From contig JAFTVX010000025.1 in assembly GCA_017465575.1 (NCBI GenBank), positions 1 to 49,375 of the forward strand: 49,375 nucleotides of DNA, given 5' to 3'. The notes below the pieces were generated by a model. It did not search any database. It saw nothing but the letters and a program-made list of their open reading frames with translations, and was not told where the DNA came from. How positions within the stretch are numbered: position 1 is the first letter of the stretch; every line of letters starts with the position of its first letter. Source of the DNA: Alistipes sp. Its GTDB lineage: Bacteria > Bacteroidota > Bacteroidia > Bacteroidales > Rikenellaceae. Below, piece by piece: positions 3,223-49,116 of the stretch. The position numbers and the translations under genes are program-made.

Positions 3223-3335
3223 TTTAGTTGTTAGTTATTAGTTGTTAGTTTTAATACCATTAAGACCATAGGACTCTAAGACCGTAAGAACTTAGAAGTT
3301 CTATTCCTTTCGTCTTACTTGTCCTCTCGTCGTAA
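3223..3335. repeat. Dispersed intergenic repeat, copy 1 (TTAG and AAGACC modules)
   Basis: A low-complexity module of TTAGTTGTTAGTTATTAG type (3224-3252) is followed by AAGACCATAGGACTCTAAGACC and then CTATTCCTTTCGTCTTACTTGTCC. The same module order recurs at 20876-21013 and 25141-25232. The right part of this copy runs into the 3' end of the truncated gene at 3315-3764 and supplies its last codons and stop. It is probably a non-autonomous repeat; no coding capacity is visible. Confidence 0.7.
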
Positions 3336-3764
3336 AAACCCTTTACTCTTTGCATACTGCGTACGGTCGACACCAAACTTATCGACTAACCACCGCGCAT
3401 GGTTGCTCAGCGTTCGGCACTCGCAACACTTATTATACACCCACTCGGGAATATAGCCAACTGGGGGAGGAGGGGGAGGAGTTCGGTGTTCAGTGTTCGT
3501 TCGTTCGTTTTCCCTATGAAAAAGAACGAACGAACACTTATCTTCCTTTAACCAAGGGTTATCCTCAAAGTATTGCTTGGGTGTGTAGTGATAACCACAT
3601 TTATCAAGGCGGTTACATTTACCTGCCTTATCATTGATATATACATTATTATTATATGTATCAATATATTTGGTAAATGATTGTTTACGACCACACTGAG
3701 GGCAATTATATCTTGTTGCTCTGCCTCGGTATTTCTCTAATTGATATCTGTAATTATTATTCAT
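3315..3764 (-). pseudogene. Truncated DUF6371-type zinc-ribbon, primase-like protein of mobile elements
   Basis: A 149-aa reading frame. The N-terminal part (RYQLEKYRGRATRYNCPQC, then CNRLDKCGYHYTPKQYF) holds a Cys-x2-Cys and Cys-x4-Cys zinc ribbon and the GYHYTP motif that I associate with DUF6371 proteins of Bacteroidota mobile elements. These resemble phage or plasmid primases and are normally 300 aa or more, with a Toprim-like C-terminal half. Here the frame ends soon after SNHARWLVDKFG, at the point where a dispersed repeat begins, so the catalytic half is absent. A poly-proline stretch and the residues ENERTNTEH are encoded by the (GTTC)n hairpin at 3484-3540. It is AT-rich and codon use is unlike its neighbours. 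Family assignment is from memory and moderately sure. Confidence 0.5.
3484..3540. repeat. (GTTC)n hairpin, inverted copy A, inside the truncated gene
   Basis: GTTCGTTCGTTC and GAACGAACGAAC arms flank a loop of GTTTTCCCTATGAAAAA. A nearly identical sequence lies in inverse orientation at 4003-4058. It falls inside the reading frame 3315-3764 and is translated there. Confidence 0.75.
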
Positions 3765-3786
3765 ACTGAGATTATTATTATCAGTG

Positions 3787-3853
3787 AGTTAAAATGGGTT
3801 AAAATGTTTCTTCAGCGGAAGTTTTATAGAAACTAATAACTAACAACTAACAA
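3787..3853. repeat. Dispersed intergenic repeat, copy 2 (GAGTTAAAATG and GGAAGTTTT modules)
   Basis: GAGTTAAAATGGGTTAAAATG is followed by TTCTTCAGCGGAAGTTTTAT and then CTAATAACTAACAACT. The same order is seen, allowing for orientation, at 21025-21088 and 29728-29816. It lies between the truncated gene (start 3764) and the HTH gene (end 4056). An inverted copy of the GAGTTAAAATG module (AACTCATTTTAACCCATAG) follows at about 3945-3982, so 3890-3982 could fold as a long imperfect hairpin. Confidence 0.65.
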
Positions 3854-4002
3854 CTCTCATTTCTAATGAGTTAATATGTGTTACAATAGGTTAATATGAT
3901 TTTATATTGGTATATGTTTTATATAATTCTTTTATAAAACATTTTAACTCATTTTAACCCATAGTAACCCATTTTAACCCATTATCACTATCTGTTTGTT
4001 TT

Positions 4003-4058
4003 GTTCGTTCGTTCTTTTTTATAGGGAAAACGAACGAACGAACGAACACCGAACACTA
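4003..4058. repeat. (GTTC)n hairpin, inverted copy B
   Basis: GTTCGTTCGTTC, a TTTTTTATAGGGAAAAC loop, then GAACGAACGAACGAACACC. It is the inverse of the copy at 3484-3540, including the CCCTAT loop and the adjoining GGTGTTC. It directly abuts the stop codon of the HTH gene and could act as a weak stem-loop after that gene, though no T-run follows. Confidence 0.75.
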
Positions 4059-4229
4059 CTCTTTGTTTAAGAGAGTGTGAACTGATGAAATACTCTTATA
4101 CCCCAGTTCCTCGGCAATCTGTCGATAACTCTTTCCCTCCTCGCGCATTGCTCGGGCAAGTTCGGCCTTCTCGTCACGCTCCTCGTTACGCTCGCGAAGG
4201 AGGTTGAAGGGCACTCGTTCGCTACCCAT
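4056..4229 (-). CDS. Small helix-turn-helix protein
   Basis: A 57-aa frame. It begins MGSERVPFNLLRERNEERDE and continues into ARAMREEGKSYRQIAEELGY, then SISSVHTLLNKE. The segment from REEGKSYRQIAEELGYKSISSVHTLL is a clear helix-turn-helix of the kind found in resolvase C-termini and sigma-4-like domains: R/K-x-G-x-S-x-x-x-IA, a turn, then a recognition helix. An acidic/basic helix precedes it. Such tiny HTH proteins are common in Bacteroidota mobile elements; this one sits just upstream of a truncated mobile-element gene. Its start codon lies only 23 bp from the first unit of the palindrome array at 4253-5437, which makes binding to these palindromes an attractive but untested idea. Confidence 0.7.
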   Translation of the reverse strand: MGSERVPFNLLRERNEERDEKAELARAMREEGKSYRQIAEELGYKSISSVHTLLNKE

Positions 4230-4252: not shown

Positions 4253-5437
4253 GGGTGTTAAAAATAGTACCTAATTATAGATAGTCTAACCTCACCATGG
4301 GTGTTAAAATCGCACCCACATCATAGTTGTGCTAACCTCGCCATGGGTGTTAAAAATCGCACCCACATCATAGTTGTGCTAACCTCGCCATGGGTGTTAA
4401 AAATGACACCCGCAACAAAGTGGACAGCTTGTTATGTGGGTACTAAAATGATACCCATATCACAGAAATACTGGTTCGCTGTGGGTGCTAAAAATGACAC
4501 CAAAACAAAATGGCACACTTGTTATGTGGGTACTAAAAATGATACCCGCAAGGTGTTAAAAATGCACCTTATTCTGTCTATAAATGATGTGGGTGTTAAA
4601 AGTCGCACCCCGCAAGGTACTAAAAATCGCACCTTATTAAGTCGCCCACAAATGATGTGGGTGTTAAAAATGACGCCCATATCATAGTTGTGTTAACCTC
4701 GCTGTGGGTGTTAAAAATGACACCCGCAAGGTGCTAAAATTAACACCCTATTATGCACCGACAAATGATGTGGGTACCAAAAATGACACCCCCAACAAAG
4801 TGGGCAGCTTGTTATGTGGGTATTTAAAATGACACCCGCAAGGTACTAAAAATCGCACCTTTGCATTCCATAAAAAAGCAATGATGCGGGTGTTAAAAAT
4901 GATACCCACAAGGTACTAAAAATCGCACCTTTACATTCCCAAAAAAGCAATGATTCGGGTATCTTAATAGTTACCCGTGCGGGTGTTAAAAATCGCTCCT
5001 CTTCATTTCAAAAAAAAGTAATGATGTGGGTATCTAAATAGTTACCCGTGCGGTTTTGGATTGAGTCCGTGTTTAGTGTGTGCGGGTATCTAAAAAGATA
5101 CCCATGCGGGTGTTAAAAATGACACCCACAAGGTACTAAATCGCACCTTTGCATCTCAATTAAAGCAATGATTCGGGTATCTAAAAAGATACCCGTGCGA
5201 TTGTGGATTAAGTCCGTGTTTAGTGTGTATGGGTATCTAAAAAGATACCCATGTGGGTGTTAAAAATGACGCCCACATCCGCAGATATACTGGCTCGTTG
5301 TGGGTACTAAAAATGATACCCTAAAATTATATGGCACACTTGTTGTGCGGGTGTTAAAAATGATACCCACAAAGTACTAAAAATCTCACCTTTGCATTCC
5401 CCAAAAAGCAATGATGCGGGTATCTATTTAGGTACCC
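4253..5437. repeat. Array of about 31 short palindromes (GGGTGTTAAAAAT-ACACCC type)
   Basis: This 1.2-kb gene-free stretch is filled by about 20-bp palindromic units, typically GGGTGTTAAAAATGACACCC. Starts of units I counted include 4253, 4299, 4345, 4392, 4438, 4483, 4528, 4591, 4659, 4706, 4772, 4818, 4888, 4956, 5028, 5084, 5108, 5174, 5231, 5255, 5302, 5349 and 5418. A second class, AAGGTACTAAAAATCGCACC followed by TT, lies at 4550, 4614, 4730, 4840, 4910, 5130 and 5372. Arms change together (GGGTGT/ACACCC, GGGTAT/ATACCC, AAGGTG/CACCTT), with G-T wobbles in some units, while the AAAA-rich centre stays constant. Sequences between units also recur (for example CATAGTTGTGCTAACCTCG and AGCTTGTTATGTG), so they are not CRISPR spacers. 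It lies between the 3' end of rdgB and the 5' end of the HTH gene. No coding function is likely. Confidence 0.85.
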
Positions 5438-5462: not shown

Positions 5463-6035
5463 TTAACTTCTTAGCACCTTGACCAAGGCGGCAACGGCAC
5501 GACCACGATGCGATATAGCATTCTTCTCGTCTGCCGACATCTCGGCGAAGCAACGGTCGTAGCCCTCGGGAACGAATAAGGGGTCATAACCGAAGCCCTC
5601 GCTTCCCGACTCCGAGAGTGCGATATGTCCATTTACGATGCCCTCGACTTGAACCTCCTCGCCACCGCGTATTAGCGAGATAACGGTGCGGAAGCGAGCA
5701 CGGCGGTTCTCCTTGCCCTCCAGCTCTCGAAGTAGTTTGCGGTTGTTGGCTGCAAAGTCGTGGCCGTCGGTTGCGTAGCGTGCAGAGCGAACACCGGGTG
5801 CGCCATTTAGCGCCTCGACCTCCAAGCCAGTGTCGTCGGCAAAGCAGTCGAGACCAGTGCGGTCGTAGACATAACGGGCCTTGATTGTGGCATTCTCATC
5901 GAGCGTTGAGCCAGTCTCGGGGATATCCTCCGTAATGCCTACCTCTTTGAGTGTAACTAACTCAAAATCATCGCCCAAGACAGCCTTTACCTCCGAAAGT
6001 TTGTGGGCATTATTTGTTGCAAATACTATCTTCAT
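5463..6035 (-). CDS. rdgB: XTP/dITP diphosphatase (RdgB/HAM1 family)
   Basis: A 190-aa enzyme that hydrolyses non-canonical purine nucleoside triphosphates (ITP, dITP, XTP) to monophosphates, keeping them out of DNA and RNA. The N-terminal [13 protein letters not shown] is the substrate-binding signature. [24 protein letters not shown] holds the catalytic acidic residues. [11 protein letters not shown] and the final [11 protein letters not shown] are also diagnostic. Length is as expected. The ATG at 6035 overlaps the stop of the lipoprotein gene (ATGA), so translational coupling is likely. It is the last gene of a three-gene leftward operon and reads toward the palindrome array; no clear terminator separates them. 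Confidence 0.95.
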
Positions 6036-6799: not shown

Positions 6800-7474
6800 T
6801 TAAAATCTAACACCTAAGCCTGCGCGAGCAACGCCCGAAGCACCACCGCCAAACTCAAAATATCCGTAGACCTTCTCGCCAACCGACAAGCCTACCCAAG
6901 TGGCATCATAGAAGAAGAAGGTCTCCTGCGCTAGACCAAAGGCGGTCATTGCGCCAAGACCCAACGACGAGTACATCTTTACGATATCGCGGTTGAGCCA
7001 CTGGAAGCGGGCATTGACCATGGCATTGAGCGCCGAAATAGCTACTCGACCGTGTCGCTCGCCTGTGTGTGCGTGTGTGCGTGTGCGGTACATAGAGACA
7101 TACGAACCCTTGACGCCGATAGCAAACCAGTTGTTTACGGCGTAGCTATATTCGAGCGAGATAACGGGCGTTAGGCGCAACTCGCCATAGTTGAAGCGAT
7201 AGTGCGCCAATATGTCGCTCATAGTCTCGTTGTCCGATGGAAAGTTTGCATCGAAGGTGGTGTCGAGATAGAAGAGCTGCGATAGTCCCGTAGCGCCCAA
7301 ACCAACACGCAAGTCGTGGCGATAGAGCGTAGGGGCATAGTCCTTATAGCTCTCGCCAATGTATCTGACCGTCGTAGTCTGAATTTCGGCAGGCTCACTC
7401 TGTATAGCCTCAACCTCCTGCGCCACAAGTGACACGGGAAGAAGCAGAGCCAATAGAAGTAGTAGTTTTCTCAT
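6800..7474 (-). CDS. Outer-membrane beta-barrel-like protein (hypothetical)
   Basis: A 224-aa protein with a signal peptide (MRKLLLLLALLLPVSLVAQ). The mature part has alternating hydrophobic/polar strands with many aromatic residues (LRLTPVISLEYSYAVNNWFAIGVKGSYVSMY), and it ends in GLGVRF, a terminal Phe typical of outer-membrane barrels. It has no recognised named domain; it resembles the small opacity-type barrels of Bacteroidales. It is first in the operon with the lipoprotein and rdgB, behind a strong promoter at 7506-7538. Function is unknown. Confidence 0.7.
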   Translation of the reverse strand: MRKLLLLLALLLPVSLVAQEVEAIQSEPAEIQTTTVRYIGESYKDYAPTLYRHDLRVGLGATGLSQLFYLDTTFDANFPSDNETMSDILAHYRFNYGELRLTPVISLEYSYAVNNWFAIGVKGSYVSMYRTRTHAHTGERHGRVAISALNAMVNARFQWLNRDIVKMYSSLGLGAMTAFGLAQETFFFYDATWVGLSVGEKVYGYFEFGGGASGVARAGLGVRF

Positions 7475-7505
7475 AGGTCTTGGTGTTTTGTTCTCATTTC
7501 TTTTG

Positions 7506-7538
7506 CAAAGTTACATACGAAATAGCCCTTGTGCCAAA
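7506..7538 (-). promoter_or_regulatory. Promoter of the barrel-lipoprotein-rdgB operon
   Basis: On the minus strand TAACTTTG (7513 to 7506) is a TAnnTTTG -7 element. TTTG (7538 to 7535) lies 21 bp upstream at -33. The start is predicted near 7501, leaving a leader of under 30 nt. Confidence 0.65.
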
Positions 7539-7632
7539 TTTTTGGGCTTCAAATTTTTCCACTTTGCTGCTTGCAATCAGTTGATAATCAATGATTAACG
7601 ATAGGGTAGAAAAGTGAATTTTTCCAAGTGCT

Positions 7633-45778: not shown

Positions 45779-45786
45779 CAAAAAAA
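45779..45786 (-). terminator. U-tract of the SRP RNA gene
   Basis: AAAAAAAA on the plus strand gives a run of T after the GGGTAAG/CTTACCC closing stem of the SRP RNA, consistent with intrinsic termination of the minus-strand gene. Confidence 0.7.
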
Positions 45787-45884
45787 GGGTAAGCTACTTA
45801 TATCGCACCGCTACAACCACATACCCTTGCTCGATTCCTCGCCTGGGGGAGTTCTGTAGGAGCTGGTCGTATAAGACTTACCCG
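45787..45884 (-). ncRNA. ffs: Signal recognition particle RNA (bacterial small form)
   Basis: On the minus strand the ends GGGTAAG and CTTACCC pair, followed inward by TCTTATA/TATAAG-type pairing. The domain IV core CCAGGCGAGGAATCGAGCAAGG has the diagnostic symmetric loop CAGG/AGCA, the GGAA tetraloop region and the asymmetric A-rich bulge. The 98-nt size is right for a small SRP RNA. It binds Ffh and targets membrane proteins. It starts just after a consensus promoter (TACTTTTG, 45896 to 45889, with TTTG 19 bp upstream) and ends in a T-run. Confidence 0.87.
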
Positions 45885-45888
45885 GGCA

Positions 45889-45919
45889 CAAAAGTACAAA
45901 AAAAATGTATCTTTGCAAA
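45889..45919. promoter_or_regulatory. Overlapping divergent promoters of SRP RNA and mltG
   Basis: Minus: TACTTTTG (45896 to 45889) with TTTG (45919 to 45916) 19 bp away for SRP RNA. Plus: TATCTTTG (45908-45915) for mltG. The mltG -7 element lies inside the SRP RNA promoter, directly next to its -33 element, so RNA polymerase can hold only one at a time. Confidence 0.7.
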
Positions 45920-49029: not shown

Positions 49030-49113
49030 GCCCAGATGGCGGAATCGGTAGACGCGCTGGTCTCAAACACCAGTAGGTTCACCCCTGTGCCGGTTCGACC
49101 CCGGCTCTGGGTA
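49030..49113 (+). tRNA. tRNA-Leu (anticodon CAA)
   Basis: An 84-nt cloverleaf with a long variable arm, as expected for a class II tRNA. The acceptor pairs GCCCAGA with TCTGGGT, then A73. The anticodon stem CTGGT/ACCAG encloses the loop CTCAAAC, giving anticodon CAA (reads UUG codons). The T arm is CCGGTTCGACCCCGG. The genomic 3' end reads ACAC rather than a full CCA, so CCA is added after transcription. Confidence 0.95.
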
Positions 49114-49116
49114 CAC

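Follow-up and report, generated by a model that had tools for sequence, protein, structure and literature searches.

Arrays of short palindromes in Alistipes and related genomes as predicted amplified operators of small solitary HTH proteins

A mosaic of near-palindromic units next to rdgB

What are the short palindromes that fill positions 4253 to 5437 of a 49,375-nt stretch of DNA from Alistipes sp. (contig JAFTVX010000025.1; the whole stretch is hereafter called the window), and what might read them? The original prediction, made from the letters of the window, described an array of about 31 short palindromes with an AAAA-rich centre, conserved distances, and intervening sequences that are themselves repeated. 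This description holds. All 31 near-palindromic units could be enumerated individually on the forward strand within 4253..5437, at the coordinates predicted, and AAAA is present in most of them. Start-to-start distances fall at 23–24, 40–47, and 56 bp, and the spacers, which are 3–36 nt in length, recur; in other arrays of the same genome, distances of 57 and 69 bp are found additionally. The basic form of a unit is RGGT-N4-AAAA-N4-ACCY, i.e., two 8-bp arms that flank four A residues. This strict form is matched by 17 of the 31 units, whereas 2000 mononucleotide shuffles of 4253–5437 yielded 0.0 matches on average; the remaining units are one or two bases longer or shorter, or carry a changed core base.

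When labelled by eye, the array is a mosaic of about 25 units of a class-1 type, with half-site GGGTRYYA, and 6 units of a class-2 type (GGGTATCT/GGGTACCT). The first unit (4253..4272) belongs to class 1, ends in ACCT, and lies at the junction with a truncated 57-aa ORF. Class-2 units are present at 4957..4976 and 5028..5047 (both GGGTATCT...AGTTACCC), at 5084..5103, 5175..5194, and 5231..5250 (each with perfect 8-bp arms), and at 5418..5437, the final unit of the array, which reads GGGTACCTAAATAGATACCC on the reverse strand and lies 25 bp from the stop codon of an rdgB/Ham1 gene (5463..6035, reverse strand). Two segments of 116 nt within the array (5015..5130 and 5162..5277, forward strand) share 90% identity, a segmental duplication that points to growth of the array by block duplication. 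At the corresponding loci of 29 relatives, palindromes were absent downstream of rdgB in all cases (0.7–1.5 kb examined each). No target duplication could be read at rdgB in the comparison with these empty sites, because the sequence after rdgB differs among relatives.

Outside the array, the window contains an inverted-repeat element (3785–3994) with 10-bp TTAACCCATT-type repeats, the arms of which are 92% complementary across 25 nt. A similar motif is present inside array spacers on contig C31 of the same genome (L015, between ~2325–2457 and 7421–7554).

The adjacent 57-aa ORF is the remnant of a longer gene

The ORF that borders the array (4056..4229, reverse strand) had been described as a small HTH gene whose start codon lies 23 bp from the array, and its product had been put forward as the binder of the units. 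The distance of 23 bp between array and ATG is correct, but the ORF is the C-terminal stub of a gene of ~340 aa, the earlier part of which is missing at the array junction, and it does not belong to the HTH family that is linked to arrays elsewhere (HTH89, see below). At 19 homologous loci from 19 genomes, taken from 40 other places found, the 57-aa homologue is in 16 cases the C-terminus of a longer frame (334–482 aa), and a homologue of the neighbouring Zn_ribbon_16 protein (149 aa; 3315..3764, reverse strand) lies near it in 14. None of the 19 loci contains palindromes in the 1.6–3.2 kb covered at each. Only the last part of the gene remains in the window. Upstream, its open frame reaches into the first unit, and the array thus adjoins a gene remnant. 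This unrelated stub also gave a weak match to the model of the repeat-binding protein Cbp1 (E 0.016, far under the cut-off).

The 57-aa ORF was therefore rejected as a candidate for the binder, its product being very unlikely to recognize the units as judged from the homologous loci. An operator or iteron array of this protein would agree with the separation of only 23 bp, but with the ORF being a stub and its homologous loci free of palindromes, we consider it close to impossible. The same applies to the plasmid-type origin that had been suggested, as the arrays are spread over many contigs, with sister arrays between ordinary genes on several contigs other than that of the window.

Sister arrays in the source genome and in related genomes

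Many more units were found in the genome from which the window derives (1.95 Mb in 47 contigs, 94% complete). The patterns GGGTNNYNAAAANNNNACCC and RGGTNNNNAAAANNNNACCY gave 70 and 126 matches genome-wide, respectively, versus 0 for each reversed control pattern. About 12 clusters of near-palindromic 20-bp sites were located, on contigs C11, C14, C24, C27 (two places), C31 (two places), C32 (the window), C35, C45, and C47, along with single sites, and C44 carries an extra array of another site class. These arrays are ~0.1–1.4 kb in length and intergenic, and the N-termini of the flanking ORFs revealed no common function of the adjoining genes. From 10 of 11 arrays (C24 yielded none), 68 spacers of 20–60 nt were grouped by single linkage in one orientation; 52 of these fall into 6 families, each common to two or more arrays, with the largest family (29 members) visibly merging at least two types. 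From such sharing it would seem that units and spacers were copied together, in blocks, among intergenic places.

We searched a sample of 250 genomes of the family (Rikenellaceae) for units. At least one match was found in 71 genomes, at least two in 47, and at least three in 39, and all of the latter belong to genera g1 and g20. The inner arms vary by genome, and include ATCG/CGAT, ATTA/TAAT, TTAC/GTAA, AGGT/ACCT, ATAC/GTAT, AGCA/TGCT, and others. A wider scan of contigs gave, among the matches listed, mostly single sites in unrelated bacteria. With a looser regular expression, only 1 of the viral stretches among the matches listed (at least 120) contained two units, the rest having one or none. 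As the viral matches listed are chance-like singles, a viral origin of the units was rejected.

In the source genome and in two relatives (G106 and G130), the array upstream of HTH89 is found in the same place with differing numbers of units, and array contents differ from species to species. Dispersed units of two further genomes were counted at 18 of the 22 loci of G086 (four from one cluster were omitted) and all 8 loci of G155, using crude ORFs of at least 100 aa: 25 of 26 are intergenic, with 13 at gene starts versus 12 at 3' ends.

A number of variations on the basic layout were observed. On many contigs of G086, where HTH89 was not found, palindrome doublets recur ~50 bp apart (GGGTAACA..AGCAACCC beside GGGTATTA..AGATACCC). 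Eight dispersed copies of GGGTATCGAAAACGATACCC are present in G155 (L136, L412–L415, L417, L419, L421), several of which extend to longer palindromes of up to 36 bp (AACAAGAT...ATCTTGTT). The arrays of G106 (L193, L194, L196) also contain, between their palindromes, CATTGCGAGG...CAATGACG and CTCAGGATGACA-like repeats, which we take to resemble repeats common in other bacteria. Chimeric units, with a left half of one class and a right half of another (e.g., GGGTAGGT-AAAA-GTATACCC in G106), occur in L193–L201 and other array loci, as if halves had been swapped at the AAAA centre, or as if the reader tolerated both classes.

A small solitary HTH gene is linked to the arrays

One small gene, which we named HTH89, recurs at the arrays of other genomes. 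Searching the 250 genomes yielded 33 matches at E <1e-15, distributed over 25 genomes. The frames are ~70–115 aa in length, with the exception of a full-length DUF2442-HTH protein of 140 aa in G066. At 30 of the 33 loci, a unit lies at most 500 bp from HTH89, and in 23 of those the nearest unit is on the upstream side; at the three loci without a unit (G184, G203, and G183:C12), the contig on the 5' side is only ~40, 196, and 404 bp long. As a control, we used 17 loci of weaker, mostly longer homologues, of which 3 had a palindrome within 500 bp, two of those three being single operators (see below). Comparison of 31 array or HTH89 loci showed that the HTH is the sole gene family to recur in 30 of them; the other large groups obtained for these loci were an antisense frame of the HTH gene and groups of 3 loci, mostly explained by local synteny. 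At least two palindromes are found in 24 of 25 genomes with HTH89, versus 23 of 225 without it (Fisher p 2e-19). The association with an HTH gene that had been proposed is thus borne out, but it concerns a different family than the adjacent 57-aa ORF.

Three paralogues in the source genome adjoin three site classes: one gene lies beside class-1 units (C31:3764–4033), another beside class-2 units (C31:6978–7247), and the last beside units of a third class, GGGTATAC/GGGTAGGT (C44:38438–38632). A fourth match of the HTH89 type, weak and longer, is encoded on C17. HTH89 proteins scored 20.6–21.5 bits with PF01381 (HTH_3), below the curated cut-off of 23 (E-values of 2.5e-4 to 4.7e-4), and the best result of a profile search against the PDB was a lambda-repressor-like protein (E 0.049). 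DUF2442 gave no match in three of the HTH89 proteins, each 89 aa long. Plasmids and phages had no match to HTH89 at 1e-5, and only weak generic HTH matches were found in defence and phage protein libraries. For 8 pairs of HTH89 genes, which have some sequences in common and of which two are near saturation, dN/dS was 0.03–0.11; one further pair of low divergence gave 0.25, and the pair G083/G100 was left out as it was out of frame. These values point to purifying selection on HTH89.

At several loci, HTH89 lies directly upstream of, and on the same strand as, groES-groEL (3 loci; L197, L247, L251), htpG (3; L192, L254, L255), a lepA-like gene (2; L195, L205), or ubiA (2), one of each having been identified by Pfam and the rest by similarity. 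A position just upstream of highly used genes could make loss of HTH89 costly. The gene is not found in all carriers of the palindromes. Sixteen of the 250 genomes have at least three palindromes and no HTH89 match below 1e-15, and a profile search of these 16 carriers detected only longer homologues (open frames of 138–167 aa), in 4 of them. Neither HTH89 nor a longer homologue was found in the richest carrier, G086 (>100 sites, 88% complete). Similarly, G106 contains many sites of the AGGT/ATAC class, yet just two HTH89 genes, both of other classes. In carriers without HTH89, readers have therefore been lost or are absent from the assemblies, or the sites additionally serve another factor.

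The conserved feature is a half-site present twice

The arms of the units had been claimed to co-vary as base pairs, with RNA hairpins, DNA cruciforms, or two-fold symmetric protein sites as the feature under selection, and a covariation test on the units had been proposed. Pooled over classes, the inner arms of 272 units from 13 genomes form 765 of 1088 Watson-Crick pairs, versus 455.8 when right arms are shuffled. In the window, where classes are mixed as well, 42 of 68 inner-arm pairs are formed versus 32.9 (p ~0.013). Against shuffles within classes, however, no excess is left. Class 1 of the source genome, represented by 82 units from the window and 11 other loci, forms 180 of 328 inner-arm pairs versus a shuffled mean of 190.6, and class 2 forms 75 of 92 versus 75.7. 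The values for classes of other genomes are 130 of 172 versus 140.9 (G194), 110 of 140 versus 109.1 (the A-AAAA-T class of G106), 42 of 48 versus 40.1 (G152), and 30 of 32 versus 30.0 (G083), and covariation was significant in none of these sets, nor in the 'other' units of the source genome. The pairing excess in mixed classes is a difference between classes. Moreover, units of the GGGTACTA-AAAA-TGACACCC type, which have two mismatches of the C-A type, are frequent (8 of 111). What is conserved is the half-site (GGGTRYYA in class 1), present twice, rather than the pairing. As the excess disappears within classes and the half-site is kept twice, the data speak for one of the readings of the original prediction, a protein site with two-fold symmetry, and against the other two, RNA hairpins and cruciforms.

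Structured RNA elements or DNA cruciforms that are selected for base pairing would explain why the arms are near-complementary in almost all units and why pairing across classes is so far above that of shuffles. In addition, a weak pairing excess is present at the three flank positions outside the 20-mer in the source genome (p 0.012, 0.002, and 0.038 for positions 1–3, uncorrected), and the first class-3 unit past the stop codon of the HTH89 gene on C44 (L240 2170–2205) is lengthened by CACAC/GTGTG with a run of T after it, and as such resembles an intrinsic terminator. These two observations leave room for minor structural roles of the units. With covariation significant in no class tested, C-A type mismatches common, and no match of the array to Rfam at gathering scores, which led us to reject its identity as an RNA family, we regard selection for base pairing as highly improbable.

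Recognition helices and site classes change together

Residues of the predicted recognition helix were compared with the inner arms at 29 of the 33 HTH89 loci, leaving out G203, G184, and G183:C12, which have no unit, and G066, which has one. The two vary together (n = 29), with a Mantel r of 0.75 and, once distance over the remainder of the protein is controlled for, a partial r of 0.63 (p 0.00025); the four helix columns of this test had been picked after viewing the table. Helix positions are numbered relative to the Asn at the start of the helix, a placement based on the Pfam HTH_3 alignment. A scan of all 48 variable columns placed +9, +5, and +2 at the top, with -9 also significant and +1 borderline; position +9 is variable in only 4 of the 29 proteins. 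When the scan was restricted to a non-redundant set of 19 less similar proteins, the permutation limit was exceeded by +9, +5, and +2 only; related genomes being non-independent, this test removes kinship only in part.

Specifically, proteins with NE(T/S)LMQ(Q/H)Y are found mainly with ATTA arms (those of G239, G221, G241, and G098 being mixed or different), NASLMQQY with GTTA/ACTA, NRTLMQQY with ATCT/ACCT, LMRNY and LFRNY with ATCG, LFQNY with ATTA/ATTG, PxLMRQY and SEVLMRQY with TTACA, and SEKLLQHY with AGCA. The table has exceptions, in that QQY proteins pair with ATTA, GTTA/ACTA, ATCT, or mixed arms. Wherever +5 is Arg, position 7 of the site is C (G on the opposite strand), in 5 of 5 cases. 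A Gln at +5 usually goes with T (A on the opposite strand), but is found with C in NRTLMQQY and SEKLLQHY. The pattern at +5 would fit Arg–G and Gln–A contacts. Across related genomes, the comparison is strongly suggestive of a dedicated tiny HTH protein as the binder of each site class, as we predict here. Eight or nine site classes are matched to proteins that differ at few recognition-helix positions, and could thus serve as a natural experiment on HTH specificity and site evolution.

Single operator-like palindromes upstream of some longer homologues

The weaker homologues of HTH89 are mostly frames of ~135–175 aa. In the longer homologues tested (G066, G076 at L405, and G220 at L237), the HTH is preceded by DUF2442, and DUF4160 is encoded by the upstream gene in both loci tested (L232, L405). 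Some longer homologues start differently, and appear HicB-like by eye (e.g., L406, L407). DUF4160 and DUF2442 are listed as the toxin-antitoxin pair dhiTA in the accessible text of one study (PMC8198452), and are entered as a toxin-antitoxin pair in that of another (PMC12654330).

A single 20-bp palindrome of 8-4-8 geometry lies upstream in 6 of 18 longer-homologue loci, and such an operator is absent from the other 12. The sequence is AGGTCTAA-AAAW-TTAGACCT in four loci, TGGTCTAA-AAAA-TTAGACCT in one, and GGGTATTA-AAAA-TAATACCT in G066. Five of the six operators have TTTG before and ATATTTG after them, with TATATTTG beginning at the last operator base. In Bacteroidales promoters, we take this position to correspond to the interval from the -33 box to the -7 box (TAnnTTTG). 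In G221, G106, and G130, a unit at the HTH89 gene is directly followed by TAnnTTTG, so that the -7 side is retained. Among array units in general, such a box follows in 0 of 320 readings in the source genome and 3 of 324 in others, and both boxes in none; the readings cover both strands, and a symmetrical unit may count twice.

The DUF4160/DUF2442-HTH operons thus have two features in common with the HTH89 loci, namely the HTH domain, which is homologous, and an upstream 8-4-8 palindrome, the latter in 6 of 18 loci. They differ in that they have one site, that the HTH is fused to DUF2442, and that DUF4160 is found alongside (in the two loci tested). With single operators of this geometry upstream of some longer homologues, the units of the arrays resemble amplified operators, those of an antitoxin-like DNA-binding domain that probably became separated from its former partner domains. 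The suggestion that the array is operator-like gains support from the linkage to HTH89 and from the operator-like position in some relatives.

Proposed origin of the arrays and alternative explanations

Considering these results, the array is quite probably a cluster of amplified operators, i.e., predicted sites for HTH89 dimers, that are dispersed as intergenic mosaics. A dimer of HTH89, a small protein of the XRE/HTH_3 type, would bind each 20-bp unit, in which two facing 8-bp half-sites lie on either side of a 4-bp A/T centre. The protein encoded at C31:3764–4033 would read class-1 units (GGGTRYYA), and its paralogue encoded at C31:6978–7247 would read class-2 units (GGGTATCT/ACCT). HTH89 is homologous to the C-terminal DNA-binding domain of the DUF2442-HTH proteins in DUF4160/DUF2442 operons. 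Most likely, this domain came to stand alone and multiplication of its operator gave rise to tandem arrays, probably in that order, and the arrays would then have been copied in blocks, spacers included, to further intergenic sites. As for their action, the HTH89 gene would most likely be autoregulated via the nearest unit or units, while the dispersed arrays would be occupied at many sites by the same protein. The linkage, the class specificity, the co-variation of helix and arms, the operator-like position in some relatives, and the common spacer families are all apparent from the sequences compared. On the other hand, the 16 carriers without HTH89, the 12 of 18 longer-homologue loci without an operator, and the exceptions in the helix table count against amplified operators. 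In addition, the dispersed sites have no preference for gene starts, unlike ordinary operators, and the palindromes of up to 36 bp in G155 are longer than an HTH dimer should need.

Whether the units and HTH89 together represent an undescribed class of bacterial repeat is, in our view, evenly balanced. In such a class, an antitoxin-derived domain would have been freed from its toxin partner and its operator amplified to dozens to hundreds of dispersed sites, with reader and repeat co-evolving as several independent pairs per genome. If true, selfish spread of the reader–repeat pair or a role of it in nucleoid organisation would be conceivable. For one bacterial family, copied operators that have their own reader would be a candidate answer to the question of the nature and origin of intergenic palindrome mosaics, and suggest a possible route from a toxin-antitoxin-type regulator to a genome-wide repeat system.

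A true regulon, in which the array and the single sites are the operators by which HTH89 controls adjacent genes, would be consistent with the location of HTH89 upstream of groES-groEL, htpG, lepA-like genes, and ubiA, and with the promoter-like position of the site in some relatives. We find it doubtful, however, as promoter boxes are rare at array units, the dispersed sites are without a start bias, and array contents vary among species. Transposable palindromic repeats of the REP/BIME/REPIN or MITE type, mobilized by a transposase acting on the hairpin and with HTH89 as an accessory or passenger, could account for much of the layout: the palindromes, their intergenic placement and dispersed copies, the recurring doublets of G086, the long stems in G155, the spacers common to arrays, and an rdgB locus that is without palindromes in 29 of 29 relatives. 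This explanation nevertheless seems unlikely. The Y1 transposase (PF01797) was found neither in the source genome nor in any of the 21 other carriers tested, and its 2 matches among 40 genomes were both in genomes with 0 palindromes; identity with RAYT/REP was rejected on this basis. No transposase-like gene is present among the recurring groups at 31 loci, and the fact that the arm sequence follows the HTH recognition helix would be left unexplained.

Comparison with known repeat systems

Among the titles and abstract openings of open-access papers listed by our searches, none describes an element in which an operator-like repeat is paired with a solitary HTH protein that co-evolves with it. 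According to the original prediction, no described element with such a layout was known. This is true for the sequence of the units, but the layout is shared with the neisserial intergenic mosaic elements and their dRS3 repeats (NIME/dRS3; PMC3898611). In the accessible text of that paper, these comprise inverted repeats of 20 bp, in which the outer arms are conserved and the centre varies, and recurring element families of 30–160 bp, in intergenic arrays of 200–2700 bp. A mosaic of short inverted repeats and recurring spacer families in intergenic arrays is found here as well. The systems differ in several respects. The dRS3 core ATTCCC(N8)GGGAAT is not matched by the RGGT-N4-AAAA-N4-ACCY units, and dRS3 has almost 700 copies, versus 70–126 matches in the source genome. 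dRS3 is a target of phage integration; our scan of viral contigs gave chance-like single matches among those listed. Unlike in NIME, the inner arms here form classes matched to small HTH proteins that are encoded beside the arrays.

REPtrons, as presented in the accessible text of PMC3733652, likewise consist of short intergenic palindromes, clustered or single, and a linked gene in repeat-specific versions. Here, the linked gene encodes an HTH protein without a recognised catalytic domain rather than a tyrosine transposase (RAYT), the units have no within-class base-pair covariation, and the GTAG tag is lacking; no GTAG (or CGTC) end tag was found when the unit flanks were read by eye. Among Bacteroidales, the BrickBuilt MITE of Porphyromonas gingivalis also forms intergenic repeat arrays, with a period of 23 nt (PMC4596501). 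In the accessible part of that description, it is composed of direct repeats (AGAYCATARTATCCTCTCRTRTG) within an element that has terminal inverted repeats, a leader, and a tail; the repeat sequence differs here, and identity with BrickBuilt was rejected for this reason. CRISPR arrays have near-identical repeats, unique spacers, and cas genes, whereas the spacers of the present arrays recur. An HTH-type protein that binds the repeats of a CRISPR array is known in Cbp1 (PMC4390879). From what the accessible text of that paper gives, Cbp1 is archaeal, contains several HTH repeats, and is encoded away from the arrays, and is as such a logical analogue only.

Elsewhere in the window, two RNA genes were located: a Bacteroidales small SRP RNA (RF04183) at 45783–45890 on the reverse strand, and a tRNA-Leu at 49030–49114 on the forward strand.
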